The notes beneath the pieces are model-generated. The model was not told the DNA's origin. It saw only the letters and a list, made by a program, of their open reading frames with translations, and ran no database searches. Positions 1-21,340 of a stretch of 40,053 nucleotides of DNA are shown in pieces. Both the position numbers and the translations under genes were made by a program. Each line of letters opens with the position of its first letter. Within the stretch, counting starts at the first letter, position 1. Origin of the DNA: an uncultured Bacteroidales bacterium (lineage in GTDB: Bacteria > Bacteroidota > Bacteroidia > Bacteroidales > UBA4417); contig CAIRMR010000091.1 in NCBI GenBank assembly GCA_903879715.1, positions 1 through 40,053 on the forward strand, given 5' to 3'.

Positions 1-119
1 GTACGATTTACGAGGTACGATTTACGAGGTACGATTTACGAGGTACGATTTACGAGGTACGATTTACGAGGTACGATTTACGAGGTACGATTTACGAGGT
101 ACGATTTACGAGGTACGAT
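1..119. repeat. Tandem array of a 14-bp unit (two heptads), cut by window edge
   Basis: Eight perfect copies of GTACGATTTACGAG fill bases 1-112, and a ninth copy breaks off after GTACGATT at 113-120. The 14-bp unit is two related 7-mers (GTACGAT and TTACGAG), so the array reads as 17 heptads. It has no spacers, so it is not a CRISPR. The true left end lies outside the window. The same heptamer in another register (TACGATT) recurs near 20401, which ties this array to the other heptad-phased tracts in the window. Confidence 0.95.
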
Positions 120-152
120 TAACTATTGACTTAATTTTATCAGTAGCAGCTG

Positions 153-160
153 CAAAGGTA
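153..160 (-). promoter_or_regulatory. Outward (leftward) promoter -7 box
   Basis: On the minus strand this reads TACCTTTG followed by CAGC, a full match to the Bacteroidota -7 consensus TAnnTTTG. It points left, through the tandem array, to a gene outside the window. I cannot see a clear -33 TTTG at the usual distance. Confidence 0.5.
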
Positions 161-237
161 CAACGAATGAAGTTAATGTTCAGCGGGTATCATGCCTTGT
201 TTTATTGAAGAGATTGTTTCAGGGTTTCAGAGTTTCC

Positions 238-265
238 TACTATTTTCTAATTCCCATTTTCTAAT
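238..265. repeat. Heptad-phased tract B
   Basis: Four consecutive 7-mers (TACTATT, TTCTAAT, TCCCATT, TTCTAAT) give a 14-bp period just upstream of the promoter of the next gene. The order and spacing match the tract at 11155-11182, so the two are the same family at unrelated loci. The T/C-rich tract continues more loosely to about 290. Confidence 0.6.
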
Positions 266-294
266 TTCCTTTTCCTTTCCTCGTTTTTCATTCG

Positions 295-302
295 TAACTT
301 TG
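295..302 (+). promoter_or_regulatory. -7 promoter box for the NAD(P)HX repair gene
   Basis: TAACTTTG matches TAnnTTTG and ends 17 bases before the ATG at 320. There is no Shine-Dalgarno-like sequence in front of that ATG. Confidence 0.55.
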
Positions 303-319
303 GAAAGAATTCGATCCCT

Positions 320-1828
320 ATGATTAAAATATTTTCACCCGACCAGGTCAGGAAAGCTGACACATATACAATTCAGAATGAACCGGTTTCATCTATTAAC
401 CTGATGGAAAGAGCTGCTATGGCTTGTTTTGAATGGATGAATTCGTTCCAGGATTTAAGCAATAAGCATGTTCTTGTTTTCTGCGGTCCCGGGAATAATG
501 GCGGCGACGGACTGGCAATTGCAAGGATGCTCATTGAAAAAAAAGTTCAGGTTTCAACTTTTATACCGGACGAATCTGTTAAAAAATCTGAGGATTTCTC
601 TGTAAATCTTCAACGTCTGAGAGAATGTGGTTTGGAACCGCATTTATTTGAATCTTTCGAACTAAACCAGCTCACTGAAAATTCAATTTTAATCGATGCT
701 TTATTCGGTTCCGGTTTATCAAAACCATTAGAAGGCATTTATAAAGAATTGGTTAAACTGATCAATAACAGCACATGTGTTACCGTTTCCATTGATATCC
801 CATCAGGTTTGTATGCCGATAAGCCTTTTGATCCTGTTAAAGATACTATTTTAAAAGCCGATTATACTCTCAGTTTCCAATTCCCAAAACTAGCTTTCCT
901 GTTTCCTGAAAATGAATTCTATACCGGTAATTGGCAGGTTTTACCAATCGGATTACACCCTGATTTTATCAATGGCGAGCCTTGCCGCATTTACCTGGTT
1001 GAATTTGCGGATGTAAAAGGAATTCTGAAACCACGATCCAGGTTTTCGCACAAAGGAACTTTTGGACATAGCTTACTAATTGGCGGAAGCAAAGGTAAAA
1101 TCGGAGCAACTGTACTGATGGGAAAAGCTTGTCTGCGTTCAGGCACCGGGCTGGTTACCGTACATTTGCCAGCCTGCGGTTATACCATAATTCAGACTGC
1201 CGCTCCAGAAGTAATGGTTTCGGTTGACGAAGAGGAGAACGAATGTACGCAACTTCCTCATTTGGGTGCATTTTCATCAATTTCCGCCGGTCCAGGAATG
1301 GGAACCGGTAAAAACACGGCCAATATGCTGAAACATTTGATCCAGGAAGCAAAGGTTCCTTTATTACTCGATGCCGATGCTTTAAATATACTTTCGGATA
1401 ATCCAACCTGGCTGGCATTTTTACCTAAAGGCACCGTGTTGACTCCTCATCCCGGAGAGTTTGCAAGATTGGCTGGAAAAATGTCCAATAGTTTTGACCG
1501 GCTCGAAATATTGCGGGCTTTTTGCATTAAATACAGTTTGAATATTGTACTCAAAGGAGCGTACACCGTAGTTTGCTCCCCCTTGGGAAATTGCTATTTT
1601 AATCCTACCGGAAACCCTGGAATGGCGACAGGAGGAAGCGGCGACGTACTTACCGGCATACTTACAGGTTTGTTAACTCAGGGGTATAATCCAACTGAAG
1701 CGTGTATTCTTGGAGTTTACCTTCACGGACTGGCAGGCGACCTGGCTGCCGAAAATAATGGGCATGAAGCCTTGGTTGCAGGCGACATTATTGAGGATAT
1801 AGGGAAGGGTTTTATGGAGTTTTACTGA
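320..1828 (+). CDS. nnr: Bifunctional NAD(P)H-hydrate epimerase / ADP-dependent NAD(P)H-hydrate dehydratase
   Basis: This 502-residue protein has the fused YjeF architecture. An N-terminal epimerase domain (about 1-215) carries the loop GPGNNGGDGLAIAR at 56-69. A C-terminal ribokinase-like dehydratase domain (about 235-495) carries GMATGGSGDVLTG starting near 434, the phosphate and Mg binding loop. In the family the epimerase interconverts R and S forms of damaged NAD(P)HX and the dehydratase restores NAD(P)H using ADP, so this is a cytosolic metabolite repair enzyme. The length is usual for the fused form. The ATG follows a TAACTTTG promoter box by 17 bases. The gene is convergent with the topoisomerase gene, with only 47 bases between the stop codons and no obvious terminator hairpin there. 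Confidence 0.95.
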   Translation: MIKIFSPDQVRKADTYTIQNEPVSSINLMERAAMACFEWMNSFQDLSNKHVLVFCGPGNNGGDGLAIARMLIEKKVQVSTFIPDESVKKSEDFSVNLQRLRECGLEPHLFESFELNQLTENSILIDALFGSGLSKPLEGIYKELVKLINNSTCVTVSIDIPSGLYADKPFDPVKDTILKADYTLSFQFPKLAFLFPENEFYTGNWQVLPIGLHPDFINGEPCRIYLVEFADVKGILKPRSRFSHKGTFGHSLLIGGSKGKIGATVLMGKACLRSGTGLVTVHLPACGYTIIQTAAPEVMVSVDEEENECTQLPHLGAFSSISAGPGMGTGKNTANMLKHLIQEAKVPLLLDADALNILSDNPTWLAFLPKGTVLTPHPGEFARLAGKMSNSFDRLEILRAFCIKYSLNIVLKGAYTVVCSPLGNCYFNPTGNPGMATGGSGDVLTGILTGLLTQGYNPTEACILGVYLHGLAGDLAAENNGHEALVAGDIIEDIGKGFMEFY

Positions 1829-1875
1829 TCAAAATACACTTCAACAAATCGGGAATACTATGAGTAAAATTAAAA

Positions 1876-3744
1876 TTACGCTACCTCTTCCAGAATCTTC
1901 TCCTCTATTTCGCTGTCATTGCGCAGGTTATCGATAATAAACAGCTGGCGTTCAGGCGTATTACTCCCCATGTAAAATGTAAGAATTGCATCAATCTCCG
2001 AAAGGTGTTTCAGAATAACCGGATCAAGCCGCATAGAGGAATCTATAAAATGGCTGAATTCATCCGGAGATATCTCGCCCAAACCTTTAAAACGTGTAAT
2101 TTCAGGACTTGGCCCCAATTCGGTTAAAGCATCCTGGCGTTCCTTTTCAGAGTAACAATAGATGGTTTTTTTCTTGTTACGTACTCTGAAAAGCGGTGTC
2201 TGAAGAATATAGACATGGCCTGACTTCACCAGGTCGGGAAAAAACTGCAGGAAGAATGTGAGCAGCAGCATCCGGATATGCATTCCATCCACATCGGCGT
2301 CGGTAGCCATTACAATGTTGTTGTATCGCAGGTTTTCGAGGTCATCTTCTATATTTAGAGCGGATTGCAGCAAGTTGAATTCTTCGTTTTCGTAAACTAC
2401 TTTTTTACTTTTCCCGTAACAATTCAATGGTTTCCCTCTTAAACTGAATACGGCTTGTGTATTTACATCTCGCGATTTGGTTATGGAACCGCTTGCTGAA
2501 TCTCCTTCGGTAATAAACAGTGTAGTTTCGAGTCGGCGGGTATCGTTGCTGTTGTAATGAACACGGCAATCGCGGAGTTTTTTATTGTGTAGGCTGACTT
2601 TTTTAACACTTTCTTTGGCAAGCTTTTTAATATTTGCCATCTCCTTACGCTCTTTTTCCGACTGAAGAATCTTGCGGTAAAGAGCTTCAGCCGTATCTGA
2701 ATTCATGTGCAGGTAATTATCCAGCTTTTTTTTCAGAATATCGGTAATAAACTTGTTAATAGTAACGCCACCCGGCTCGATATGCTGCGAACCAAGTTTG
2801 GTCTTGGTTTGTGATTCGAATAATGGCTCACTAACCTTGATACTCACGGCCGCAATGATGGATGAACGGATGTCACTGTATTCAAAGTCCTTACCAAAAA
2901 ATTCGCGGATTGTTTTTACTAGCGCGTCACGGAATGCAGCCAGGTGAGTACCGCCCTGAGTTGTATGTTGTCCGTTTACAAATGAATAATATTCTTCTCC
3001 ATATTGTTTGGCACTATGAGTAAAAGCACATTCAAAATCTTCATCCTTGATATGAATAATAGGATAATTAACAGGACTCCCGTTATTCGTCTTTTCAAGC
3101 ATATCAAGCAAGCCATTCTTTGCCAGGAAGCGCTGACCATTGAAAATTATGGTTAAACCGTTGTTGAGGAAACAATAGTTCCACAACATCTGTTCGATAT
3201 ATTCCTTCAGAAAATGATAATTGCCAAACAACTGGGCATCGGGAACAAAGGTGATAAGCGTTCCATTCCTGAGATCAGTAGGCTGCTCGCCCGATTCACT
3301 GATTAATTCGCCTTGCCTGAATACAACTATATTAGAGCGCCCTTCGCGTATGGCCTGGGCAGTAAAGAAACTGGAGAGCGCGTTTACAGCCTTGGTACCA
3401 ACACCGTTGAGCCCGACAGCCTTTTTAAATACTTTTGAATCGTATTTTGCACCGGTATTTATCTGCGAAACGCATTCAACCAGCTTGCCAAGCGGTATTC
3501 CCCGGCCATAATCGCGTATTGTGACCAGGTGTTCCTTGATGGTTACTTCAACATTGCGGCCATGCCCCATGGTGAATTCATCGATACAGTTATCAATGAC
3601 TTCTTTGATCAGCACATAAATACCATCATCGTGAGAAGAACCATCGCCTAATTTACCAATATACATACCGGGACGAAGCCTGATATGTTCCTTCCAGTCA
3701 AGCGACCGGATACTTTCCTCGTTATAATTTCCAGTTGTGTCCAT
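1876..3744 (-). CDS. parE: DNA topoisomerase IV subunit B (type IIA, ATPase subunit)
   Basis: The 622-residue product begins with a GHKL ATPase domain (motifs around DNCIDE, GRGIPLG and [14 protein letters not shown] in the first 130 residues), then a transducer domain. The TOPRIM domain follows, with EGDSASG near 413 and [11 protein letters not shown] near 485, which hold the metal-binding acidic residues. Its length (about 620) and its lack of the long GyrB-type insert favour ParE over GyrB. Topoisomerase IV decatenates sister chromosomes as an A2B2 complex. The partner parC is not downstream: the gene ends against the convergent nnr gene, so the subunits are either split or parC lies elsewhere. 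A minus-strand TATATTTG box sits at 3755-3762, leaving almost no leader. Confidence 0.93.
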
Positions 3745-3754
3745 AATGCGGCAG

Positions 3755-3762
3755 CAAATATA
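3755..3762 (-). promoter_or_regulatory. -7 promoter box for parE
   Basis: The minus strand reads TATATTTG, a full TAnnTTTG match, 10 bases before the parE ATG. Transcription starting about 7 bases after the box would give a nearly leaderless mRNA. Confidence 0.5.
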
Positions 3763-3913
3763 ATTTAATCCTAAAAAGGATTGTAAGCTTTCATGCAGAA
3801 GTTATTAATGAGTTTTGCACAGGTAAAAGGATGTCGGATGTTAGAATTAGTGGTTGGATATTTATTTTAAACCAGAAAAAGCTAATGCAGACAAATCCAT
3901 TTAGCCTGTCATA

Positions 3914-3939
3914 ATAAAAAAACCGGAAAGATTCCGGTT
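3914..3939 (-). terminator. Rho-independent terminator of the CAP/SPOR gene
   Basis: An 8-bp stem, AACCGGAA with TTCCGGTT (3921-3928 and 3932-3939), has a 3-base loop. In the minus direction it is followed by a run of Ts (3914-3920 on the plus strand are mostly A). It lies about 40 bases past the stop of the gene ending at 3981. Confidence 0.8.
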
Positions 3940-3980
3940 AATTAAAAGCTTACTCCAGTGAATCCTGCAGCATATTTAAT

Positions 3981-4946
3981 TTATTTTTTTAATACCCAGA
4001 TTCCAGGGAAAGCATCTTTGAGTTGATTTTTCTTATTCGCTGCTTTCTGAACTGAATTATATGAAGCAATAGAAATGCGATACACAGATTCCCCTTTAAT
4101 AATTATCGCATCGGGATAGCCTTTCGATTTGACTTTTTTAAGCTCTGTTTCAGCGCCTTCGGCTGTTTTAACACTGCTTACAATCAGAAAGTACATGGTA
4201 GCTGTTTCGCCGGTTACAGGCTGAATAACTTTTTCATTAGCTGTAACTTCCTTCAGTTTTTCAGATGGTTTAGTTTTCACATTATCTTTTTCCGGTGTAG
4301 TTACTTTTTCAACTTTTGCAATGGGTTGCTGAACAGCAGCTACTTTCTCTATAGTTTTACCCTGATCATTTTTATCTTTAGCGTCGCCCAGCCAAAGTAC
4401 TGCATAACCGGACATTATTCCTACACCAATAGCTTTCCACTGATATGCGCTCCATTTACCTTTGCTCAGAATCATATCCGAAGAGGCACCTACTTCTTTC
4501 CATAAGGCTGCTGCTTCAGCGGGAGTTGCGTTATCTTCGCCCCAATAAATTAATTCATATCCATCGCCCGGGTAAGCGGTAATTTCCCTGGGTTTTGATT
4601 TCATACACTGAATACCGAAAACATCCTTTGTGTTACAACACGATGTCCATTTGCCTGAACCGCTCCAGCTGTGAAGACTACATCCTTTTTCCTGCGGTTT
4701 CCATTTAATGAGATCAGCAATATGTATCTGAGAAACTTTGCATAAATCATTTGACAAAGGAATAGAGGGAAGTTTGTTCTGCCGGCGCATATCGTTTATC
4801 ATATTAAACAGGATAGTTTCATCCTGAGATATTCCAGCAATAACAGTATCATTACCACAGATACCATTTGACACATTACCGGCAATACCAGAGAATGCCA
4901 AAAACATCAGCAGAAATAAAAGTCTAATTTCTTTTCGTAGAAGCAT
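3981..4946 (-). CDS. Exported CAP (SCP-like) domain protein with C-terminal SPOR domain
   Basis: The 321-residue protein starts with a basic then hydrophobic signal segment (1-23, ending near FSGIAGN), so it should be exported. Residues about 42-190 resemble a CAP/SCP domain: a helix with LFNMINDMRRQNKLPSIPLS, then LCKVSQIHIADL, a Cys-rich stretch, and YELIYWGEDNATPAEAAALW. A Lys/Glu/Thr/Pro-rich linker (about 198-248) leads to a C-terminal SPOR domain (about 250-321, with YFLIVSSVKTAEGAETELKK and YRISIASYNS). SPOR domains bind denuded septal peptidoglycan glycans, so a cell-envelope role near division sites is plausible. The CAP part may be a hydrolase-like or binding module; the substrate is unknown. 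It is monocistronic with its own terminator. Confidence 0.75.
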   Translation of the reverse strand: MLLRKEIRLLFLLMFLAFSGIAGNVSNGICGNDTVIAGISQDETILFNMINDMRRQNKLPSIPLSNDLCKVSQIHIADLIKWKPQEKGCSLHSWSGSGKWTSCCNTKDVFGIQCMKSKPREITAYPGDGYELIYWGEDNATPAEAAALWKEVGASSDMILSKGKWSAYQWKAIGVGIMSGYAVLWLGDAKDKNDQGKTIEKVAAVQQPIAKVEKVTTPEKDNVKTKPSEKLKEVTANEKVIQPVTGETATMYFLIVSSVKTAEGAETELKKVKSKGYPDAIIIKGESVYRISIASYNSVQKAANKKNQLKDAFPGIWVLKK

Positions 4947-5090
4947 TTGAGTACGACCGGTTTTGATTTTGATTGGCTAAATTACTAATAAAATATCAAC
5001 TTCTCCATGATAATTCCCAATAGTACGCGATAGTTTTATTACAGAGAACTAAACTATTACTTGTTGATCATCGCAAAAAAATGTTTTAAA

Positions 5091-5334
5091 TCAGTTTTCT
5101 TCCTTCACAAGTTTATACCACCTGATGCCTTCAACAGCGCTTTCAATTGCACATAGAATTACTGAAACATGATTTAGTATCTTGCGCTTTTATGTTGATA
5201 AAAGTCTGAAAAATTCCGTTTCCGAAAAGTGCATCCGTTGTTCTAATTCCTGCTTCCATGAGGAGATCGGCCAAAGCACTGCCAAAATTAGTCAAATCCT
5301 CAGGTTTTATTGCGAAGTCTTTTCGATTTATCAT
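5091..5334 (-). pseudogene. Small conserved-looking gene with an apparent +1 frameshift
   Basis: The frame opening at 5334 overlaps the M28 peptidase stop by 4 bases (ATGA), the arrangement of a translationally coupled gene. It reads an amphipathic, protein-like 52 residues (ending FINIKAQD) and then a short unlikely tail to a stop at 5143. Skipping one base near 5178 moves into a frame that continues LNHVSVILCAIESAVEG and ends ...KLVKEEN at 5091, which looks like a natural C-terminus. The combined product would be 81 residues. I do not recognise the family; no signal peptide or membrane segment is visible. It could be a sequencing or assembly error, a fresh pseudogene, or simply a 63-residue protein. 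Confidence 0.5.
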
Positions 5335-8443: not shown

Positions 8444-8466
8444 GGAGTGAGACTATTTCATTATCA

Positions 8467-9639: not shown

Positions 9640-9661
9640 ACAGCAAAAGTTAAAAGTGTAT

Positions 9662-9669
9662 CAAAAGTA
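9662..9669 (-). promoter_or_regulatory. -7 promoter box for the GT4 operon
   Basis: The minus strand reads TACTTTTG, 22 bases before the GT4 start. A TTG on the same strand at 9686-9688 lies 16 bases upstream, close to the spacing expected for a -33 element. Confidence 0.55.
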
Positions 9670-9748
9670 GAAATTCCTGCCATAACAATCCTTATAAAAT
9701 TGAGAATCCAATGGCTTTGAAAATCATAACCGGATTACGCAGTAAGGA

Positions 9749-10911: not shown

Positions 10912-10930
10912 AAAGAAATTTAAAGAGCGG

Positions 10931-11094: not shown

Positions 11095-11154
11095 AGTAGG
11101 TATTCTTGTGTTTTTGGTGAGGACTTGAGAAGGTTGAGCCATTCGGGTGTATGA

Positions 11155-11182
11155 GACTATTTTCTATTCCCTATTTTCTATT
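11155..11182. repeat. Heptad-phased tract C, containing the mpl stop codon
   Basis: Four consecutive 7-mers, GACTATT, TTCTATT, CCCTATT and TTCTATT, make a 14-bp period. The stop codon of mpl (TAG on the minus strand, 11178-11180) lies inside the last heptad. On the mpl sense strand the tract is purine-rich with G but no C. Confidence 0.65.
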
Positions 11183-12545
11183 CCCCCAATTCCTCCGCAA
11201 ATTCTTTCACCTGCAATCCATCATAATTCCCTGAACTCATTAAAAGCAGGTTCGAATTCGCCCATTTTTCATTCCGAAGAAATTTCTGGAATTGTTTTGT
11301 ATCTGAAAAAACGAGAAGGCCTTCTTTTTGAAAGGATTGTTTAATATCTTCAGGTAAAAGCATCGGAAGTTTTTTCAATTCCAAAGCATGCGACGAAAAA
11401 TATACAATAGCCTCGTCCGCTTTCTCCATACTGTACGCATATTGATTCAGGAAATCCTTGTTCAGGCTGCTAAAAGTGTGTAATTCAAAACAGGCAACAA
11501 GTCTTCGGTTGGGGAACTGTTCTTTTACTGCCTGGATGGTAGCTTTTAATTTTGAAGGCGCATGAGCAAAATCGCGGTATGCATTAAATCCGGGCTTTTC
11601 AGCGATTAGCTCCAGTCGATTCGAAGCTCCTTTAAATGTAGAAATTGCCTTGTAAAAATCTGAATTACTAATATTTAACTCATTACAAACCAGCCTGGCG
11701 CCTTCGAGATTCATCAGGTTATGTTGCCCGAAAATCATCAACGGAATTTCACCTTCTGATGTTGAAAGTGTGGTTTTACCATTTGAAACACTGTGCACGG
11801 GAACGCCATAAGGCAGCTTTTTCATCTTTCCAGGTACAGAATCTACTGCGTTCAGAACTTCCGGATCTTCCTTACAGTAGATCAATGAACCCGAATCATG
11901 CACCATATTCATAAAAATACGAAACTGCTCAATGTAGTTTCCGAATGTCGGAAATACATTCATATGATCCCAGGCTATTCCGCTAACCAAAGCAATATCA
12001 GGTTTATACAAGTGAAACTTTGGACGAAGATCGAGTGCGGATGTCAGGTATTCATCTCCCTCAAAAACCATAACCTTAGCCGCCTCTGTCAACCTGACCA
12101 TAACATCAAATCCTTCGAGTTTTGCGCCTACCATATAATCGGTATCCACATTGCATTGATGTAAAACATGAAGAATCATCGCTGTAATTGATGTTTTTCC
12201 ATGACTACCGCCAATTACAACACGGAGTTTATCTTTACTTTGTTCGTAAAGGAATTCCGGATACGAATAAATTTTTAATCCAAGTTCCTTAGCTTTTGCC
12301 AGTTCAGGATTATCGCCACGGGCATGCATGCCCAGAATAATTGAATCAATACTAGGATCAAGCTTTTCAGGAAACCACCCGAATTGCGCAGGCAATAAGC
12401 CATAAGAACCGAGCCGTGCACGGGCAGGATCAAATATTTCATCATCCGATCCTGTAACACTGTAGCCTTTCAGATGCAGTGCTATAGCAAGATTGTGCAT
12501 GGCACTCCCTCCTATTGCTATAAAATGAACCCGGTTATTTGTCAT
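11178..12545 (-). CDS. mpl: UDP-N-acetylmuramate--L-alanyl-gamma-D-glutamyl-meso-2,6-diaminopimelate ligase
   Basis: The 455-residue Mur-ligase-type protein starts RVHFIAIGGSAMHNLAIALH (nucleotide-binding Rossmann domain), has the ATP loop GGSHGKTS at 112-119, and the C-terminal domain with AYRDFAHAPSKLKATIQAV and RRLVACFELHTFSSL. The AMH motif in the first loop and FAHAPSK are characteristic of Mpl rather than MurC. Mpl rejoins recycled tripeptide to UDP-MurNAc in the cytosol, so it belongs to peptidoglycan recycling. The start is supported by a near-consensus promoter box (TACCTTCG on the minus strand, 12573-12580). The last codons run into a 7-bp repeat tract that supplies the stop codon. 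Confidence 0.93.
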   Translation of the reverse strand: MTNNRVHFIAIGGSAMHNLAIALHLKGYSVTGSDDEIFDPARARLGSYGLLPAQFGWFPEKLDPSIDSIILGMHARGDNPELAKAKELGLKIYSYPEFLYEQSKDKLRVVIGGSHGKTSITAMILHVLHQCNVDTDYMVGAKLEGFDVMVRLTEAAKVMVFEGDEYLTSALDLRPKFHLYKPDIALVSGIAWDHMNVFPTFGNYIEQFRIFMNMVHDSGSLIYCKEDPEVLNAVDSVPGKMKKLPYGVPVHSVSNGKTTLSTSEGEIPLMIFGQHNLMNLEGARLVCNELNISNSDFYKAISTFKGASNRLELIAEKPGFNAYRDFAHAPSKLKATIQAVKEQFPNRRLVACFELHTFSSLNKDFLNQYAYSMEKADEAIVYFSSHALELKKLPMLLPEDIKQSFQKEGLLVFSDTKQFQKFLRNEKWANSNLLLMSSGNYDGLQVKEFAEELGE

Positions 12546-12572
12546 AAAAAAACACTTTGATGTTATATTTTG

Positions 12573-12580
12573 CGAAGGTA
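12573..12580 (-). promoter_or_regulatory. Near-consensus -7 box for mpl
   Basis: The minus strand reads TACCTTCG, one mismatch from TAnnTTTG, 27 bases before the mpl start. Confidence 0.35.
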
Positions 12581-12702
12581 AAACAGAAAGTTGTACGAGT
12601 TTATAGTATTGAAAGAAAATGCCATCAGGTTATGAACAGGCTTAAAAAAACATTGCACGAATGAAGACTTTGATCGGTTTCTTTCATAAGATTCAAAAAC
12701 AT

Positions 12703-12710
12703 TACCTTTG
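12703..12710 (+). promoter_or_regulatory. -7 promoter box for the MBL-cysH pair
   Basis: TACCTTTG matches TAnnTTTG. A transcript starting about 7 bases later would begin almost at the ATG at 12722, which favours the ATG at 12734 as the true start. Confidence 0.5.
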
Positions 12711-12733
12711 TAGCTTCTACAATGAATTTGAAC

Positions 12734-13576: not shown

Positions 13577-13584
13577 CAACAACT

Positions 13585-14295: not shown

Positions 14296-14306
14296 GGAAA
14301 TAAAAT

Positions 14307-14341
14307 TGTGATTTCTGATTTTCGATTTCTGATTTTTGATT
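14307..14341 (+). repeat. Heptad-phased tract E, 3' of cysH
   Basis: Five consecutive 7-mers all end in GATT: TGTGATT, TCTGATT, TTCGATT, TCTGATT, TTTGATT. The tract starts 11 bases after the cysH stop. The fixed GATT with a variable first half is the same pattern as the tracts at 20373 and 21236. Confidence 0.7.
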
Positions 14342-14544
14342 TTATGCTTTAAGGAGTTTTAGCGTCTTGATTTAGAAATACGAATTTGGAATTAGCTTGC
14401 AGCCTGTATGAATGCAGCCTGTCTTATCCTATAAATGCAATAAACTCTCTGAAAGAAAAGTAGTTGTTGAATAATTGTAATTAATACACTAAACTGAATA
14501 TCACACATTTACACTACAAAATAAATTTGTTTTAAAAAATGTTT

Positions 14545-14552
14545 TATTTTTG
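14545..14552 (+). promoter_or_regulatory. -7 promoter box for the CBM48-like gene
   Basis: TATTTTTG matches TAnnTTTG, with TTTG at 14526-14529 upstream (15-base spacing, somewhat short). It lies 46 bases before the ATG. Confidence 0.5.
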
Positions 14553-14598
14553 CATTGCTTTTCGAAGCTTATTCTATGTTTAACCAATATTATTAAAA

Positions 14599-14892
14599 AT
14601 GATTGAGAAACGTCAATTACTGAAGACCAAACCAGTTAGCAAAGTAACATTCAAGTTTAAAGCAGACGCTGAAGCTGTTGCTTTGGTTGGTGATTTCAAC
14701 AGTTGGAACGAAACTTCCACTCCCATGAAAAAAGCTAAAGATGGCACTTTTTCGGTGTCAGTAGAAATGGAAAGTGGTCGTGAACAACAATTCCGTTATC
14801 TGGCAGATGGTAAAATCTGGCATAACGATGAAGCAGCCGATAAATACGTAACCAACGCGCTGGGAAGCGAAAATTCGGTGGTTATTCTGTAA
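14599..14892 (+). CDS. Small isoamylase early-set (CBM48-like) protein
   Basis: The whole 97-residue protein is one immunoglobulin-like glycogen-binding fold: VTFKFKADAEAVALVGDFNSW, then PMKKAKDGTFSVSVEM and FRYLADGKIWHNDEAADKYV. The GDFNSW and FRYLADG motifs match CBM48/AMPK-beta glycan-binding domains. There is no signal peptide and no catalytic domain, so it is a stand-alone cytosolic binder, probably for glycogen or a related alpha-glucan. It has its own promoter and a strong terminator 21 bases after the stop, so it is expressed alone. No glycogen enzymes are nearby, which leaves the role open. Confidence 0.85.
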   Translation: MIEKRQLLKTKPVSKVTFKFKADAEAVALVGDFNSWNETSTPMKKAKDGTFSVSVEMESGREQQFRYLADGKIWHNDEAADKYVTNALGSENSVVIL

Positions 14893-14913
14893 AAACCTGA
14901 TACATACTTGGAT

Positions 14914-14949
14914 AAATCCTGCGGTGTTCTTATCTGCAGGATTTTTTTT
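14914..14949 (+). terminator. Rho-independent terminator of the CBM48-like gene
   Basis: A 9-bp perfect stem, AAATCCTGC with GCAGGATTT (14914-14922 and 14936-14944), runs into eight Ts. It starts 21 bases after the stop codon at 14892. Confidence 0.9.
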
Positions 14950-15012
14950 GCGTTGATTCTAAATTATTATAATGAAACTCCGGTAAGACATATCATACTT
15001 TTGACTAAACAG

Positions 15013-15073
15013 AAATGATAAATCAACATGTTCCCTTTAGGGATCAAGGGTAAAACATGTTGATTTATCATTT
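15013..15073. repeat. 20-bp perfect inverted repeat with CCCTTTAGGG core
   Basis: The arms at 15013-15032 and 15054-15073 are exact complements (outer part AAATGATAAATC), separated by 21 bases that themselves hold CCCTTTAGGG. It sits 12 bases past the stop of the minus-strand permease gene and 64 bases past the terminator of the plus-strand gene. It could act as a shared terminator, or be a dispersed palindromic repeat: similar words (TGTTGA, TTTATCAT, CCCTTTAGG) recur around 32670-32820. Confidence 0.75.
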
Positions 15074-15085
15074 TGTAAAATTGAC

Positions 15086-16306
15086 TTAATCGAACCGGAT
15101 TGCTTTTACCGGACTTATCCGGGCAACAATAAAAGAAGGCAGTAAAAGCATTAAAGTGCAGGCACCCAAAGTACCGGCATTAAGAGCTAAAATATGAATA
15201 ACATCAAGGTTAATAGGCACTACCGACATAAAATACGATTCCTGTGGAAGGCTCACAATACTAAAATACTTTTGAAGCAGACAAATACTTATCCCTGCAA
15301 TATTTCCGTACAAAAGACCCTTCCCAATGATGTAAGCTGCATTATACAGGAATATCCTGCGAATACTAAGGTTACGAGCTCCAAGGGCTTTCAGAACACC
15401 AATCATACTGGTTCGTTCAAGGATCAGGATTAATAAAGTAGAAATCATAGCCATTCCGGAAACCAGGATCATAAGCACCAGGATTATAATCACATTCATA
15501 TCCTGCAGATCAAGCCAGTCGAACATTTGAGGGTAAAGATCGCGAATGGTTTTGGCGTTCAGCTCATAGCCGACTTCTTTGTAAACGATTTTCCCCATTT
15601 TGTCAAGCTGGTTAAAATCATTGATATAAACGTCAAATCCTGATATTGAATCTGCGCTCCAGCCATTCAGTTTCTGGATTTGCCTGATATCGCCAAAAAT
15701 AAATTTAAGATCAAACTCTCCGAGTCCTGTATTATAAATCCCTGAAACATTGAATCTGCGCGCCCGTGCCATATTCTCAATAATGAAATACATGCGCAAA
15801 GGATCACCAACCTTGATTTTCAGGAGTTCAGCAAGGTTTTGTGAAATAATTACTGAGTTACCGGTTGCAGTGTCTTTAGTTGAAAAAGGGTTCCCGGAAA
15901 CAAGCTTATCATTAAAATAGGACCAGTCAAAATCAGCTCCAACGCCTTTAAATACAACACCTTGTATTTGTTCCGACGTTTTGATAATCCCGGCTTTGGT
16001 AGCAAAAACCTGTATGTGTTTTATTCCTTCCGTATTTTTTAGTTTACTGATAAAAGCCTGGTTTCTACTTATCGGCTCAAACTCAAATGAATTATTTGAG
16101 TCAAATTTAGCAATCTGGATATGGGATCCAAAACCAACTATTTTATCACGTATCTGCTTCTGAAATCCCGTAACAATGGCCACCGAAACAATCATCACCG
16201 CCAATCCCAGAGCAACACTGATAATGGCAATGCGAATCACCGGGGCCGAGAAACTTCCGGGGCCGCCTTTTATCAATCGTCGGGCAATAAATTGTTCTGT
16301 ATTCAT
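15086..16306 (-). CDS. LolC/LolE-type ABC transporter permease (FtsX domain)
   Basis: From the ATG at 16306 the product is about 406 residues, beginning MNTEQFIARRLIKGG, the usual start of this family. A longer frame from 16348 adds 14 residues that do not look native. One N-terminal membrane helix (APVIRIAIISVALGLAVMIV) is followed by a large periplasmic domain and three C-terminal helices with the FtsX signature TSMIGVLKALGARNLSIRRIFL. In Proteobacteria LolCDE extracts lipoproteins from the inner membrane. Bacteroidota have similar permeases, so lipoprotein sorting is likely but not proven. No ATPase gene is adjacent. It ends 12 bases from the large inverted repeat at 15013-15073. Confidence 0.82.
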   Translation of the reverse strand: MNTEQFIARRLIKGGPGSFSAPVIRIAIISVALGLAVMIVSVAIVTGFQKQIRDKIVGFGSHIQIAKFDSNNSFEFEPISRNQAFISKLKNTEGIKHIQVFATKAGIIKTSEQIQGVVFKGVGADFDWSYFNDKLVSGNPFSTKDTATGNSVIISQNLAELLKIKVGDPLRMYFIIENMARARRFNVSGIYNTGLGEFDLKFIFGDIRQIQKLNGWSADSISGFDVYINDFNQLDKMGKIVYKEVGYELNAKTIRDLYPQMFDWLDLQDMNVIIILVLMILVSGMAMISTLLILILERTSMIGVLKALGARNLSIRRIFLYNAAYIIGKGLLYGNIAGISICLLQKYFSIVSLPQESYFMSVVPINLDVIHILALNAGTLGACTLMLLLPSFIVARISPVKAIRFD

Positions 16307-16482
16307 TCGGCTGCAAAAATACTTTTTTATCCGATCTAAATCGGCCAAATAATATTAGCGTCTTCCACAAAGTAAAGATTTTAGCAAAAACAAGCTTTTT
16401 AAACCTTTTTCGTTTATTATTGTACGATTATTGCAGCAGCTTTAAAAATCATGTAGCTCAGAATATTAACACCAAACACAAT

Positions 16483-17694
16483 ATGCAGTCTATCAAATAT
16501 ATAGCACTTATCTTATTAACAGTAGTAACTATTTTAGGATTTTGCCAGACACAGCAAAATCTGAATAAGCATTTATCCTCAGAAGAAAGCATACTACCTG
16601 GTGCGTATATGACCGGCAACTACCTGCCTTTACTCAAAGCAAAAAAGATTGGTATTATAGCCAATAACACTTCATTAATCAATAAAACACACCTTGTAGA
16701 TTCATTAATTTCACTGAAAATTAATGTGATAAAAATCTTTGGCCCGGAACATGGTTTTAGGGGGGATCAGCCGGATGGCAAAGAAATACAGAATGGGAAA
16801 GATCCGAAAACCGGCCTCGATGTCGTTTCGTTGTATGGAAATCATAAAAAGCCAACAAAAACTGATATGGAGAATATTGATATAATGATCTTTGATATTC
16901 AGGATGTAGGTGCGAGATTCTATACATTTATTTCCACATTGACTTATGTAATGGAAGCATGTTCAGAAAACAATATTCCTCTTATCGTCCTTGACCGGCC
17001 AAATCCAAACGGATATTATATTGATGGACCAGTTCTGGAGCCTTCTTTCACTTCATTTGTTGGCATGCATCCTGTTCCAGTTGTATATGGTATGACGATC
17101 GGTGAATATGCAAGCATGGTGAATGGCGAAAGCTGGCTAAAGGAAGGAACACAATGCAGTTTAACTGTAGTAAAATGTGATAATTATACGCATAAATCCA
17201 GATTTCAGTTACCGGAGCGACCTTCACCTAACCTGCAGGATATGAAAGCCATTTACCTGTATCCTTCACTGTGCTTATTTGAAGGAACCGTAGTAAGTGT
17301 TGGACGTGGGACCGACAAGCCATTCAAGGTCTTCGGTCATCCGAGGTTATCGTCAGGAAAGTATAGTTTTACACCGAAACCAATTAAGGGAATCAGTGAA
17401 GATCCACCACTTAAAGGACAACTTTGTTATGGACAGAATCTGGAAAAAGAAGCTGAATTAATAAAGAATAATGGACATCTTGAATTAAAATGGCTCATTG
17501 AGTCGTACAAAAATCTCAATTCAAAAACTCAGTTCTTTACTAATTACTTCGATAAGCTAGCCGGAAACAGCAAATTACGTGAACAAATTATAGCCGGAAA
17601 AAGTGAAATAGAAATCCGTAAATCGTGGCAGCCAAATCTGAATGCCTTTAATAAAATGCGGAAGAAATACTTGCTTTATCCTGATTTTGAATAA
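16483..17694 (+). CDS. DUF1343 / NamZ-like exo-beta-N-acetylmuramidase (GH171 type)
   Basis: I prefer the ATG at 16483: it opens with MQSIKYIALILLTVVTILGF, a signal peptide, while the 21 residues added from 16420 look non-coding. The roughly 403-residue product has GIIANNTSLINKTHLVDSL, KIFGPEHGFRGDQPDG, FDIQDVGARFYTFISTL, VLDRPNPNG and SLCLFEGTVVSVGRGTDKPF, all hallmarks of DUF1343. The family includes NamZ enzymes, which remove terminal MurNAc from peptidoglycan fragments, so a periplasmic cell-wall recycling role is likely and would pair logically with mpl upstream. It stands alone and is convergent with the aminotransferase gene; 7-bp phased repeat DNA begins 5 bases after its stop. Confidence 0.87.
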   Translation: MQSIKYIALILLTVVTILGFCQTQQNLNKHLSSEESILPGAYMTGNYLPLLKAKKIGIIANNTSLINKTHLVDSLISLKINVIKIFGPEHGFRGDQPDGKEIQNGKDPKTGLDVVSLYGNHKKPTKTDMENIDIMIFDIQDVGARFYTFISTLTYVMEACSENNIPLIVLDRPNPNGYYIDGPVLEPSFTSFVGMHPVPVVYGMTIGEYASMVNGESWLKEGTQCSLTVVKCDNYTHKSRFQLPERPSPNLQDMKAIYLYPSLCLFEGTVVSVGRGTDKPFKVFGHPRLSSGKYSFTPKPIKGISEDPPLKGQLCYGQNLEKEAELIKNNGHLELKWLIESYKNLNSKTQFFTNYFDKLAGNSKLREQIIAGKSEIEIRKSWQPNLNAFNKMRKKYLLYPDFE

Positions 17695-17699
17695 AAAGG

Positions 17700-17727
17700 G
17701 GTTAGGATTTAGGTGTTTGGGGTTAGG
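17700..17727 (+). repeat. Heptad-phased tract F, 3' of the NamZ-like gene
   Basis: Four 7-mers, GGTTAGG, ATTTAGG, TGTTTGG and GGTTAGG, begin 5 bases after the stop codon. The tract is G-rich and C-free on the sense strand of the gene it follows. Confidence 0.55.
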
Positions 17728-17756
17728 ATACTAAAGTCATATCTTTCAATAGATTA

Positions 17757-17825
17757 ATCGCCTAGTCGCCCCTCTCCATGTCACCCTTCAACTTGTCAAC
17801 TCTAACGTTCAATCACTCAATCTGC
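17757..17825 (-). repeat. Degenerate 7/8-bp phased tract, 3' of the aminotransferase gene
   Basis: Read on the minus strand, this spacer is a string of related short words (GATTGA, GTGATTGA, AGAGTTGA, CAAGTTGA, GCGATTA) spaced 7 or 8 bases apart, again G-over-C on the sense strand of the gene it follows. The phase slips, so the case is weaker than for the other tracts. With 17700-17727 it makes a mirrored pair between convergent genes. Confidence 0.4.
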
Positions 17826-19022
17826 TCAAACCTTTCCCGGATAAACTTTCAACGCTTCAGCCAAACATTTAACAGCATTCCGCAAATCATCAATCTTTAG
17901 AACATAAGCAATACGCGCTTCTGTTTTGCCTAAACCCGGCGTAGCATAAAATCCTGACGCAGGCGCAAGCATCACAGTTTGATTTTCGTAATTAAAATCT
18001 TCGAGTAACCATTGGCAGAATTTGTCGCTGTCGTCAACCGGCAAACTGATAATTGCGTAAAACGCTCCTTTGGGTTTTGGCGCAAAAACTCCCGGAATCT
18101 TGTTTAATTCATTAATTACAAAATCGCGGCGGGCAATATATTCGTCATACACTTCCGTAAAGTAAGAATCCGGAGTTTGCAGGGACGCCTCGCCAACAAT
18201 TTGTCCTAATGAAGGAGGACTTAGCCTGGCCTGGCCATATTTCAAAGCAGAATCAAGTATTTCCTTATTCCTGGTAATTAACGCGCCAATACGCACGCCA
18301 CATTCGCTGTAACGCTTCGAAACTGAATCAATCATCACTACATTCTGATCAATTCCTTCGAGTTTCATAACCGAAAAATGATCGTCATCATCGTAACAAA
18401 ATTCACGGTAAACTTCATCGGCAAAAAGATACAGATCATACTTCTTTACAAGATCACCAAGTTGCATCAACTCAGCTTTGCTATATAGGTAACCCGTCGG
18501 ATTATTAGGATTACAGACCATTATAGCTTTGGTTTTCGGGCCGATCGAATTCTCAAATTCACGGATAGGAGGAAGCGCAAAACCATCCCTAATATTGGAG
18601 GTAATTGGTTTCACAACCACACCGGCAGTCTGGGCAAAAGCATTATAATTGGTATAAAAAGGTTCCGGAATTATAATTTCGTCACCCGGGTTCATGCAGG
18701 AAAACATAGCAAAAAGGATAGCTTCGGAACCTCCGGTGGTAATAAGTATCTGGTTAAAATCAACATTTATTCCACGACTGCAATATTTTGCGGCCAAAGC
18801 CTTACGATACGATTCATTACCAGCTGAATGGCTGTATTCTATTACTTTTCCATTGTAATTCCGAATGGCTTCGATAGCAACTTCAGGCGTTTTAATATCT
18901 GGCTGGCCAATGTTGAGATGATAAACTTTTATACCTCTTTTCTTAGCTGCTTCGGCGTAAGGGACAAGTTTACGGATGGGAGATGCAGGCATTTTCAGGC
19001 CTCGTTGTGAAATCTTTGGCAT
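17826..19022 (-). CDS. Pyridoxal-phosphate class I/II aminotransferase (aspartate aminotransferase-like)
   Basis: The 398-residue protein shows the fold-type I pattern: YHLNIGQPDIKTP near 34-46, VCNPNNPTGYLYS (169-181), FADEVYREF (Asp202) and DSVSKRYSECGVRIG with the PLP lysine at 236. Arg residues in the GVRIG loop and near the C-terminus (EARIAYV) fit a dicarboxylate substrate. In this subgroup the usual activity is aspartate/2-oxoglutarate transamination, though aromatic or methionine specificity cannot be excluded. It is cytosolic and monocistronic, with a TACATTTG box on the minus strand at 19060-19067. Confidence 0.88.
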   Translation of the reverse strand: MPKISQRGLKMPASPIRKLVPYAEAAKKRGIKVYHLNIGQPDIKTPEVAIEAIRNYNGKVIEYSHSAGNESYRKALAAKYCSRGINVDFNQILITTGGSEAILFAMFSCMNPGDEIIIPEPFYTNYNAFAQTAGVVVKPITSNIRDGFALPPIREFENSIGPKTKAIMVCNPNNPTGYLYSKAELMQLGDLVKKYDLYLFADEVYREFCYDDDDHFSVMKLEGIDQNVVMIDSVSKRYSECGVRIGALITRNKEILDSALKYGQARLSPPSLGQIVGEASLQTPDSYFTEVYDEYIARRDFVINELNKIPGVFAPKPKGAFYAIISLPVDDSDKFCQWLLEDFNYENQTVMLAPASGFYATPGLGKTEARIAYVLKIDDLRNAVKCLAEALKVYPGKV

Positions 19023-19059
19023 TGCAGTATTTTTTAATATTACGAATCGAAAAACGGTG

Positions 19060-19067
19060 CAAATGTA
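19060..19067 (-). promoter_or_regulatory. -7 promoter box for the aminotransferase gene
   Basis: The minus strand reads TACATTTG, 37 bases before the start codon. Confidence 0.5.
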
Positions 19068-19179
19068 TATAAATTATGAAGCAGAAAAAGATTATTAACT
19101 TATATAAATTTCTGATCACAGTTTGTAAAAGGTAATGTCACACAACAATTTTCAGGCATGATTTTTGAATAATAATATC

Positions 19180-19187
19180 TACTTTTG
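19180..19187 (+). promoter_or_regulatory. -7 promoter box for the TlpA-like gene
   Basis: TACTTTTG matches TAnnTTTG, 29 bases before the ATG at 19217. The divergent aminotransferase promoter is about 115 bases away. Confidence 0.5.
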
Positions 19188-19216
19188 TCGGACACTCATT
19201 AAATACGATCAAACTA

Positions 19217-20344
19217 ATGAAACTTCAGAAAAACAGATTTATCCTGATATTAATCTTACTTTTTTTCTCCACTTTCCTGCAGGCGCAAAAAGTAACCGAT
19301 CCGGTTGTTATCAGCGGAACTATAAAGGATAAAGGCGCTTATAAACAGATCTATCTTGATACACTGAATGGACAAAATCCATGGATTTTTGTTTCATCAG
19401 CCATTGATGAGAATGGTTCTTTTAAACTGGTAGCACCTATAACTACAAGCGATATCTTCAGGCTGCGACTGGATGAAAAGAATTATATGATGGTGATTCT
19501 TACTCCCGGCGAAAAAATCAGCTTCAAAACCTTGACTTCCAAACTGGGTGGTGATGCTGCAATTGAAGGATCTTTTCATACACAACTGCTTTATAATACA
19601 ATGAATAGTTCGCAGTCATTCGAAACCCGGAAAGCTATGTTAAACCAGAAGTATAATGATATACAGGCATCGCCGAAACAGGATTCATTGTCAGCCATCA
19701 TTATCAGCCAGTTCCGTGCAAATGACTCTTTACAGAAAACAGCTTTAAAAATTCAAATGGAGAAACACCCGGCATCACTTGCCTGGATTTTTTTTCAGGA
19801 TAAACTGGATATGACCAATGACTTTGATATTATTGATAAAATTGATGCCGCAAATTTCAAAGCATACCCTGAAAATCCATTTGTAAAACAATATCATCAG
19901 CAGGTTGAAGTTGAACGCAAAACTGCAATCGGAGCTTCAGCACCTGAAATTGCATTAACTGATACTGAAGGCAAAATCCGTAAACTCTCATCGCTGAAAG
20001 GCAAAGTTGTGCTAATCGATTTCTGGGCTTCCTGGTGCGGACCGTGCCGCAAGGAAAATCCGAATGTGGTTGCAATGTATAAAAAATACCATGATAAAGG
20101 TTTTGAGATATATAGTGTTTCGCTGGATAAAGAGCGGAGCAGCTGGCTTGCTGCTATTGCCAAGGACAACCTTTTATGGCCGGATCATGTGAGCGATTTA
20201 AAATATTGGAAATCAGAAGGCGCTGCTGCTTATGGAGTTACTTCAATTCCGTTTACTGTATTGATTGATAAAAAAGGTAAAATTGTTGCAAAAAAACTGC
20301 GTGGCGAAGAACTGGAAAGTAAGGTGAAAGAGCTATGTAAGTAG
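19217..20344 (+). CDS. TlpA-like thiol-disulfide oxidoreductase with N-terminal DUF4369 domain
   Basis: The 375-residue protein has a signal peptide (1-24, ending TFLQAQ). A beta-rich DUF4369-type domain follows (about 27-130, VVISGTIKDKGAYKQIYLD), then a helical linker and a thioredoxin-fold domain from about 235 (SAPEIALTDTEGK). The redox site WASWCGPCRK has Cys274 and Cys277, and the cis-proline loop is GVTSIPFTVLID. Such proteins act in the periplasm, reducing disulfides in cytochrome maturation or in oxidative stress defence. This domain pair is very common in Bacteroidota. It is monocistronic; a mirrored heptad tract lies between it and the convergent cyclase gene. Confidence 0.88.
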   Translation: MKLQKNRFILILILLFFSTFLQAQKVTDPVVISGTIKDKGAYKQIYLDTLNGQNPWIFVSSAIDENGSFKLVAPITTSDIFRLRLDEKNYMMVILTPGEKISFKTLTSKLGGDAAIEGSFHTQLLYNTMNSSQSFETRKAMLNQKYNDIQASPKQDSLSAIIISQFRANDSLQKTALKIQMEKHPASLAWIFFQDKLDMTNDFDIIDKIDAANFKAYPENPFVKQYHQQVEVERKTAIGASAPEIALTDTEGKIRKLSSLKGKVVLIDFWASWCGPCRKENPNVVAMYKKYHDKGFEIYSVSLDKERSSWLAAIAKDNLLWPDHVSDLKYWKSEGAAAYGVTSIPFTVLIDKKGKIVAKKLRGEELESKVKELCK

Positions 20345-20372
20345 TTTGACTCTTCGGCAATTTTTGAATTCA

Positions 20373-20414
20373 AATGATTTAAGAACAAGGATTAATGATT
20401 TACGATTTTAGAAG
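20373..20414 (+). repeat. Heptad-phased tract G-left, 3' of the TlpA-like gene
   Basis: Six in-phase 7-mers: AATGATT, TAAGAAC, AAGGATT, AATGATT, TACGATT, TTAGAAG. Four of six end in GATT. It begins 28 bases after the stop and is mirrored by the tract at 20449-20490. Confidence 0.65.
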
Positions 20415-20448
20415 AAAAATTTACCTTGAGGGAAAATTATACATCAAA

Positions 20449-20490
20449 AATCGTTAATCATTATTCTTAAATCTTGCTTGAAAAATCATT
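20449..20490 (-). repeat. Heptad-phased tract G-right, 3' of the cyclase gene
   Basis: Six in-phase 7-mers: AATCGTT, AATCATT, ATTCTTA, AATCTTG, CTTGAAA, AATCATT. On the minus strand four of them again read nnnGATT (AACGATT, AATGATT twice, CAAGATT). With G-left it forms an imperfect inverted repeat in a spacer between convergent genes. Confidence 0.65.
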
Positions 20491-20508
20491 TCTTTAGTTG
20501 AAAATCAA

Positions 20509-21129
20509 TTATTCCTTAATCATTGCCACCGCCCGTATCAGAGATGCCTCAGCCTCAATTTTTAATGGGAAGGCCATAAATTCAATATTTTCTTTTCCTG
20601 TAAGTTTATCAAGGTTGGTCAGATTCTCAACCAGGAATCGTTCATCTTTCAGGAAGACAGTGTGAAAAGCGAAAGGATCTTTATCCGGCGAAGGGGAATC
20701 AAATCCTGCAATTCGAACTCCACAGTTTACCAGTGATTCAGCAATTTCAATATCGAATTCAGGATAATTATAATAATAATTTTCTTTCCCCCATTCGCTA
20801 CTCCATCCGGTACAGAAAAGGACAATTTTATAGTTTTTAAATATCAACTCCCAGCCAGGCTGCATTTTTACACTGTATATACCTCGCACATCAATCACTA
20901 CTGCGGAACCTGAAAACAATTCCACGGGAAATTTATCAATAGTCAGAGAATCGCTTTTAACATGATAAGGAGCATCCATATGGGTTCCTGTATGCATATT
21001 TGTTTCAAGACGATGTGTAACATAGCCAACATCATCCGGCAAAATATCGCGAACGATGGAAGGTTCATTTTCACCCGGAAAAACAGGCATCCCATGGCTG
21101 ATTGTGTGTGTGAGATCTATAATTTTCAT
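20509..21129 (-). CDS. Cyclase family protein (kynurenine formamidase-like metal hydrolase)
   Basis: From the ATG at 21129 the product is 206 residues starting MKIIDLTHTISHGMPVFPGE; a 10-residue extension from 21159 is possible but atypical. The metal-binding motif HTGTHMDAPYH (H-x-G-T-H-x-D-x-P-x-H) and FDSPSPDKDP near 150 are signatures of the cyclase/KynB superfamily. Members hydrolyse N-formylkynurenine or isatin, or act as polyketide-related cyclases. No tryptophan catabolism genes are nearby, so the substrate stays open. It has no signal peptide. The gene is convergent with the TlpA-like gene and lies downstream of the nuclease gene across a 209-base repeat-filled spacer. Confidence 0.85.
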   Translation of the reverse strand: MKIIDLTHTISHGMPVFPGENEPSIVRDILPDDVGYVTHRLETNMHTGTHMDAPYHVKSDSLTIDKFPVELFSGSAVVIDVRGIYSVKMQPGWELIFKNYKIVLFCTGWSSEWGKENYYYNYPEFDIEIAESLVNCGVRIAGFDSPSPDKDPFAFHTVFLKDERFLVENLTNLDKLTGKENIEFMAFPLKIEAEASLIRAVAMIKE

Positions 21130-21203
21130 TCGGTTAATTAATACGTTAACAGGAATCAATATTCCCTTTTACTATTTCATTTATTCTTTGCTTCTGGTAG
21201 GCC

Positions 21204-21225
21204 GAGACGCGAGGCATCGCGTCTC
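21204..21225. repeat. REP-like hairpin
   Basis: GAGACGCGA and TCGCGTCTC (9 bp, perfect) flank the loop GGCA. It is GC-rich in an AT-rich spacer and resembles the dispersed 'GAGACGCG..CGCGTCTC' palindromes I associate with intergenic repeats in several phyla. It sits directly next to the heptad tract D. Confidence 0.65.
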
Positions 21226-21235
21226 TAAGGCTTGT

Positions 21236-21340
21236 TTCTATTTTCTATTTTCTATTTTCTATTTTCTATTTACTATTTTCAATTAACGATTTTCTATTAA
21301 CGATTTTCTATTAACGATTTTCTATTAACGATTTTCTATT
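21236..21340. repeat. Heptad-phased tract D (15 heptads), reaching the nuclease stop codon
   Basis: Exactly fifteen 7-mers without a gap: five TTCTATT, then TACTATT, TTCAATT, and then AACGATT alternating with TTCTATT four times, giving a 14-bp period. The stop codon of the minus-strand nuclease gene (21339-21341) overlaps the last heptad, and the repeat supplies a second in-frame stop straight after it. Confidence 0.9.

Follow-up and report, generated by a model that had tools for sequence, protein, structure and literature searches.

The 40,053-nucleotide stretch analysed here (the window: contig C91, CAIRMR010000091.1, of assembly GCA_903879715.1) comes from an uncultured Bacteroidales bacterium and carries intergenic tracts built from 7-bp units. 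The tracts are tentatively interpreted, at slightly less than even confidence, as lineage-specific heptanucleotide arrays carried by small elements resembling miniature inverted-repeat transposable elements (MITEs) and later reworked in 7- and 14-bp steps. The genome measures 6.07 Mb (99.6% complete, 223 contigs). The own-genome sample of 717,752 bp, about 12% of the genome, consists of the window plus 39 pieces in three groups: the window, 30 stretches from contigs with pattern hits and nine contigs not chosen by hits; one all-N piece was removed. Gene edges are everywhere those of the longest open reading frames (ORFs), which leaves 5′ edges uncertain. Relative genomes carry G-numbers and fetched loci L-numbers. 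The best lag-7 or lag-14 run of each spacer was scored against 500 dinucleotide shuffles, tracts were called in spacers at a threshold of 16, and repeat units are those of Tandem Repeats Finder (TRF). Seven features of the window form the starting point:

1..120, no strand assigned: tract 1, 14-bp unit GTACGATTTACGAG of two alternating heptamers, 8.6 copies (TRF, 100% matches); it sits at the contig start, so its length is a minimum; spacer 1-119 scores 107, reached by 0/500 shuffles.
238..274, no strand assigned: tract 2, a short 14-bp array (TRF unit ATTTTCTAATTCCC, 2.4 copies, TRF score 52); spacer 238-265 has a lag-7/14 score of 18, reached by 0/500 shuffles (lag 7 alone, p 0.054).
11155..11185, minus strand: tract 3, a AATAGAAAATAGGG array (TRF, 14-bp unit, 11157-11185) where the Mur-ligase-type gene 11178-12545 has its 3′ end, and the source of that gene's TAG stop; spacer 11155-11182 scores 15, reached by 0/500 shuffles (lag 7 alone, p 0.002).
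14307..14343, plus strand: tract 4, five TGATTTC/TGATTTT/CGATTTC units directly past a PAPS-reductase-type gene (TRF); the spacer tract 14307-14341 scores 19, reached by 0/500 shuffles.
17698..17729, plus strand: tract 5, a weak AGGGGTT/AGGATTT/AGGTGTT-type left arm past a NamZ-type gene, found by the shuffle test; 17700-17727 scores 10 (p 0.002, 500 shuffles).
20376..20473, no strand assigned: feature 6, an inverted repeat or hairpin between convergent genes with ATGATTT/ACGATTT-like words (arms 20376-20406/20443-20473, 84% complementary; RNA fold z -3.9); the 7-phasing of 20373-20490 is weaker still than that of 17700-17727 (p 0.026, 500 shuffles).
21235..21343, minus strand: tract 7, 15 heptamers, a TTTCTAT zone and then (TTTCTATTAACGAT)n (TRF, 14-bp unit), reading GGTTAATAGAAAATCG from the end of gene 21339-22037 and providing its TAA stop; spacer 21236-21340 scores 85, reached by 0/500 shuffles.

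An earlier note on this DNA had described seven spacers organised in strict 7-bp steps. Phasing is strong in five of them and weak in the one at 17700; 20373-20490 consists mainly of an inverted repeat. "Strict" is too strong a word, as the TRF unit is 14 bp at 1-120, 11157-11185 and 21235-21343. The heptamers that the note named as recurring at different loci are visible in the sequence. The genes abutting tracts 3 and 7 of the window take their stop codons from these tracts.

Head-to-tail 7-bp units occur in spacers above chance, as in heptanucleotide intergenic repeats of the STRR, GGGNATC and TAACTGA kind. Lag-7 autocorrelation in spacers reaches z 6.1 in the window, 24.1 in the 30 stretches from hit contigs and 8.7 in the nine contigs not chosen by hits, above the shuffled level against which the note had wished its claim to be judged. 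The 30 stretches show an excess at lags 7, 14, 21 and 28 and a smaller one at 6, 8, 15 and 22, the octamer-type lags 8 and 15 standing at z 13.0 and 10.5. The nine contigs have z 6.1 at lag 14 and weak values at lags 21 and 28 (2.4 and 0.9). Coding DNA has no lag-7 peak. Summed over the three groups at threshold 16, lag 7 yields 48 tracts in spacers and 5 outside them; the spacer tracts at lags 5, 6, 8, 9 and 10 number 0, 3, 15, 2 and 4. Octamer tracts occupy the same spacers as heptamer tracts, and with 15 lag-8 tracts beside 48 at lag 7 the suggestion of selection for a 7-bp rhythm finds no support.

The words are shared between loci. Families include ATTAACN/ATTTTCN (GGTTAATGGAAAATG), GGATGTN, AGGGGTT/AGGTTTT, GGAAGTC, GACTTGG/AATTTGG, TTTACGA, CACTCTT and the octamer GTTCAAAG. 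A common 14-mer links 89 pairs of the 51 tract spacers, and 45 of these spacers have at least one partner; column-permuted tracts give 7.8 such pairs (max 14). Sharing lies far above these controls for 9-mers to 14-mers. Mixed 18-mers are common to 16 spacer pairs, against 4.4 (max 9) with unit order shuffled. Two diagnostic strings are restricted to the genus among the genomes searched. GGATGTN in three copies is present in 12/16 genus members and ATTAACN-ATTTTCN-ATTAAC in 10/16, both in 0/25 order-level relatives; the latter also has 0 hits in a phylum-wide sample of 394 further genomes, all outside this genus. A longer ATTAACN/ATTTTCN form gave 39 stretches in a one-genome-per-species collection in which the own genome or very close ones may be missing. 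Six Bacteroidota metagenome-assembled genomes (MAGs) hold 37 of these, and the other two, in an Oscillospiraceae MAG and a Desulforhopalus MAG, may reflect misbinning. Named records with the window's word mix are mostly uncultured Bacteroidales MAGs. The looser ATT-N4 pattern was rejected as a cross-genome measure, being unspecific with a reversed control that was also high (own 272 vs 369). Visual inspection also shows, beside heptamer families at L062:7377-7778 and L069:9451-9693, a spacer array with a period of 11 bp (TTGAATGACNA and its complement).

Discrete inserts carrying such words link the arrays to mobility. Comparing 272 fetched sequences all against all by BLAST yielded 18 candidate indels. 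Thirteen were set aside since one or both of their flanks aligned over a short length or within a repeated family (flank lengths 47-443 bp, overlaps from -1 to 25). A further clean indel, window 14949-15081 vs G003, fills two of the 18 rows and has neither heptamers nor overlap. Three have orthologous flanks of at least 373 bp and heptamer words, two with clear arrays, and all are bounded by a 6-8 bp repeat that is single in the empty relative:

Insert 1, 139 bp: filled in G002, empty in G012; 7-bp duplication AATTAAA; array reached by 0/500 shuffles.
Insert 2, 236 bp: filled in KTt_bin-0938, empty in Loc080925 bin-499; 8-bp duplication AAAAGAAT; array and inverted arms each reached by 0/500 shuffles.
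Insert 3, 176 bp: filled in G009, empty in the window; 6-bp duplication TTAGAT; array p 0.024.
16334..16339, minus strand: the empty TTAGAT target site of insert 3 in the window, from the filled/empty comparison; the insert holds GGAAGTC-type units.

A target-site duplication at a discrete insert, as looked for in MITEs, is thus seen in three filled/empty pairs, with a weak array in one. Insert 1 matches an own-genome spacer (74% over 138 bp). Insert 2 carries GGTTCTA as a terminal inverted repeat; its site is the 10-bp gap between two tandem ORFs. By rough estimate, a junction repeat of 6, 7 or 8 bp would arise by chance in about 0.4%, 0.1% or 0.05% of cases each. The 9-bp overlap at a G003 insert near L062:5546 was not counted, as it lies in an octamer array. 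In a search for a related autonomous element with matching ends, made among 271 loci with whole genomes outside its scope, the end pattern GGTTCTRTTGCRA matches in L146 only; GGTTCTATTGC is an example of an insert end. The element that spreads, proposed in the earlier note, is supported by these inserts (6-8 bp duplications, one weak array), from the cross-locus words and from the strings found in the genus alone among the relatives searched.

Under the MITE-like reading, arrays would form the arms of non-coding insertion elements of about 140-240 bp and move with them. Such an element would enter an intergenic gap and duplicate 6-8 bp of target, its arms reading inward G-rich on either side, which would produce both a polarity rule and inverted pairs. 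After landing, the arms would behave like microsatellites: mutation of units, and amplification or replacement of unit pairs by 7 or 14 bp at a time, would soon make orthologous tracts diverge in words and length. Unlike arm families would result from later rewriting, and a transposase or nuclease encoded elsewhere would move the arrays. A host function would not be required.

The placement of the tracts follows this polarity. In the own-genome sample 45 tracts lie within 30 bp of a gene edge, 32 at 3′ ends and 13 at 5′ ends. The G-rich strand reads from gene into spacer in 38 of them (6 opposite, 1 equal), at stops and starts alike. The same inward polarity holds for 11/13 near-edge tracts in eight sampled relatives and for 19/22 scored of 39 loci in other MAGs (6 in ORFs and 11 with the spacer running past the piece end were left out). 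Two-armed spacers have arms of the same family in 8/19 cases (2.3 expected, p 0.0002). Tracts occur in 4/57 divergent, 39/233 tandem and 10/49 convergent spacers. Right-edge tracts between two forward genes proved C-rich (7/7), which was the ground for rejecting a polarity imposed by transcription only, with the G-rich strand as non-template.

Inward polarity at both sides, together with unlike arms in one spacer, is also what would be expected if both 3′ ends of a spacer break were extended telomere-fashion by G-rich heptamers and then joined. This origin is very improbable. Ku occurs in 0/41 genomes, so that Ku-dependent end joining was discarded, and all three inserts have target duplications, one with a terminal inverted repeat. 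The closeness to gene ends (32 and 13 of 45), the scarcity between divergent genes and the strong polarity, with comparable placement described in PMC4692102, would equally suit a selected regulatory element. This would be a 3′-untranslated-region or leader signal (a terminator, an RNA stability or protein-binding element, or a G-quadruplex), the G-rich sense RNA past the stop being kept. Such selection is improbable, as the words of spacer 21160-21338 are kept in 0/9 relatives and 3/4 tract RNAs folded no better than shuffles. A two-layer G-quadruplex pattern fits 31/85 spacer tracts and a three-layer one 7/85, which led to the rejection of G-quadruplexes as a common denominator; the two-layer count was 30/76 tracts vs 18 in one shuffle of each.

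Comparison of orthologous spacers shows that turnover is fast. Nine relatives have the gene pair around spacer 21160-21338: no tract was called in six of them, and in the remaining three (G002, G011, G015) the words are different. The gap between the aligned genes is 11-28 bp in G009, G007, G012 and G004 and 52-61 bp in G010 and G005. Four relatives keep the gene pair around tract 14307-14341, which is identical in G003 and not called in G015, G007 and G001; since G003 is a separate genome, the tracts are not absent from independent assemblies, a possibility that the note had raised against itself. The end of the Mur-ligase gene reads GGAATAG/AAAATAG in the window vs four GGAGTAA units and then GAAGTAA in G003. 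At the place of tract 5, G009 has the same family with a different right arm. The spacer of feature 6 measures 11-20 bp between aligned genes in G009, G011, G001 and G004 and 195-693 bp in G010, G012, G005 and G007. Spacer 1-119 is a pure 14-mer array in the window and a mixed TGATGTA/CGAGGTA/CGATGTA/CGATTTA array in G003; the latter includes the same 14-mer, which points to local 14-bp amplification. The idea that slippage gives one pure unit per locus is therefore too strict, for here a two-word 14-mer was amplified. Heptamer exchange finds support solely in the sense of replacement or amplification (GGAATAG/AAAATAG vs GGAGTAA, and the 14-mer vs the mixed units of G003).

The same amplification speaks for slippage or unequal exchange of short seeds in place. 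The replication machinery would then favour 7 bp, and shared words would go back to common descent and to seeds that are alike (stop codons, AT-rich spacers). A GGATGT array is short in the own genome and G003 and longer at the same site in G009. According to PMC4679880, the Mrazek 2007 survey found heptamers to be the commonest long repeats in most of its genomes and polymerase contact was proposed. This explanation is nevertheless unlikely, if less so than the regulatory one: seeds would have little room in orthologous gaps of 11-28 bp, identical mixed words recur at many loci over the genus, multi-unit blocks are common to several loci, and the inserts have target duplications.

Several findings weigh against the MITE-like reading. 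Only three insertion events were found, and the array of insert 3 is weak, with few GGAAGTC-type units (p 0.024); because of this weakness, confidence in the reading was lowered from even to slightly below, and in-place slippage was raised a little within the unlikely range. The inverted arms are not significant in the G009 insert (p 0.82) and modest in that of G002 (p 0.016). The ends differ among the three inserts, which therefore do not form one family. A mobilising enzyme was not identified. Long alignments of the own and G003 samples, 106 kb in all, contain five indels, 0 with a called heptamer tract; their overlaps are 10, -4, 6, 9 and 0, and two of the inserts have CACAGATT- and CACTAAGG-type words. 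Since inserts without heptamers also overlap by 6-10 bp, target duplication is not peculiar to heptamer inserts. A target duplication with a terminal inverted repeat is found in 0/49 own-genome tract spacers (0.4 expected), so that arrival of most tracts by insertion would be an extrapolation from three events. Arms are unlike in 11/19 two-armed spacers. Sharing of 8-mers falls under the level of dinucleotide shuffles (357 vs 407), and sharing of 24- and 28-mers (5 and 2 pairs) equals the maxima with shuffled unit order. Samples of some relatives have little lag-7 signal (G003 z -1.3, G018 1.7, G009 1.9).

As a detector, the combination of target duplication and inverted ends was abandoned, since the other spacers (3/220, 3.8 expected) were, like the own ones, nothing above chance. 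A possible dispersed element with ends GTAACTAA lies at L036:11337-11564, L065:12599-13082 and L054:6707-7058, with an 8-bp target duplication at two places in a screen that as a whole was not above shuffles. The L054 copy has CACAGATT-type arms and a 78% match to another place in G003, and its own site is empty in G003.

The heptanucleotide repeats of heterocystous cyanobacteria are known as STRR. They go back to Mazel 1990, as cited in PMC4692102, and heptanucleotide repeats have since been known from scattered bacteria, with origin and function left open in PMC4692102 and kindred papers. Cyanobacterial repeats resemble the present ones in being degenerate, in phase and variable in copy number, and a degenerate heptanucleotide stem is described in the Nostoc tRNA-Leu intron (PMC3488679); they differ in belonging to another lineage and, in the intron case, in lying within an RNA. 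Rehm 2015 (PMC4692102) describes GGGNATC / GGGGA(C/T)T heptamers of Xanthomonas and Nostoc and leaves their role open. Like the tracts here, these 7-bp units are over-represented in spacers, variable in length and sequence between relatives, mostly <50 bp from genes with the G-rich strand sense at stops and antisense at starts, under-represented between divergent genes and, in Xanthomonas, often in inverted pairs. Placement near gene ends with strand polarity, as in that study, is found here too. Unlike them, GGGNATC repeats have one G-quadruplex-forming consensus, keep the same gene context in 83% between two relatives and are described as generally not with mobile elements (PMC4692102). The window's genome has many word families, most not G-quadruplex-like, and a three-layer quadruplex-forming unit is not general among its 85 spacer tracts; it also has fast turnover and inserts with target duplications.

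MacGregor 2015 (PMC4679880) reports TAACTGA direct repeats in Beggiatoaceae, cyanobacteria and five Bacteroidetes, so that the earlier note was wrong to know of no named equivalent in Bacteroidota. These too are intergenic heptamer arrays; two Bacteroidetes have other heptamers alongside, and relatives' spacers are shorter without obvious arrays (PMC4679880). They differ in using one fixed word, which in the BOGUAY genome lies mostly just upstream of starts (PMC4679880). TAACTGA doublets number 0 on both strands of the own-genome sample.

Porphyromonas gingivalis is another member of the Bacteroidales. Its BrickBuilt is a minisatellite within a MITE (PMC4596501), a tandem array inside an intergenic element with short inverted ends, as proposed here. 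It differs in its 23-nt unit, single family and irregular target duplications (2 and 4 bp in two copies). In titles and abstracts of the open-access literature, which leaves most subscription journals outside, no such arrays in this group and no MITE-borne heptamers were found. The window's arrays belong with the known heptanucleotide intergenic repeats, extending them by a large vocabulary specific to the genus, by rapid turnover and by a first connection to MITE-like insertion. A multi-word genus vocabulary with turnover at constant place and polarity, together with the inserts, makes the origin testable by strain comparison.

On a broader and still more doubtful view than that of a regulatory element, the degenerate heptamer arrays of Bacteroidales, Xanthomonas and cyanobacteria would be arms of one wide mode of small mobile elements, the polarity rule would be the footprint of inverted arms, and PDDEXK_3 nuclease genes (PF13366; GxxExxY proteins) would be candidates for the autonomous form. 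PF13366 nuclease loci (L164, L167, L179, L184 and others in L163-L197) often lie between inverted quasi-periodic arms with CACGGAGG- and CGCAAAG-type words. An arm score of at least 18 is reached by 24/29 scored loci (4/33 skipped) vs 24% of cross-locus pairings; 21/29 beat all 100 shuffles and 8/29 do not.

Heptamer tracts are one possible source of contig breaks, and the window starts inside one. Contig ends lie in or near heptamer tracts at window 1-120, at the starts of L046 and L049 and at the ends of L039, L144 and L162. Heptamer arrays may thus break short-read assemblies.

The window has no Rfam match. Of ten flanking genes scanned with Pfam, nine match ordinary families (cyclase, aminotransferase, redoxin, NamZ, PAPS reductase, Mur ligase and NMN transporter among them), and gene 21339-22037 has no Pfam match. 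Two minor features complete the window:

21204..21225, no strand assigned: a short palindrome GAGACGCGAGGCATCGCGTCTC in the same spacer as tract 7, also in L070; as GAGACGCGATGCCTCGCGTCTC on one strand (window 21204-21225, L070:12734) it is found in two spacers, both also with 7-bp tracts.
31952-31985: a CTC trinucleotide array of 11 copies within ORF 31696-32487.

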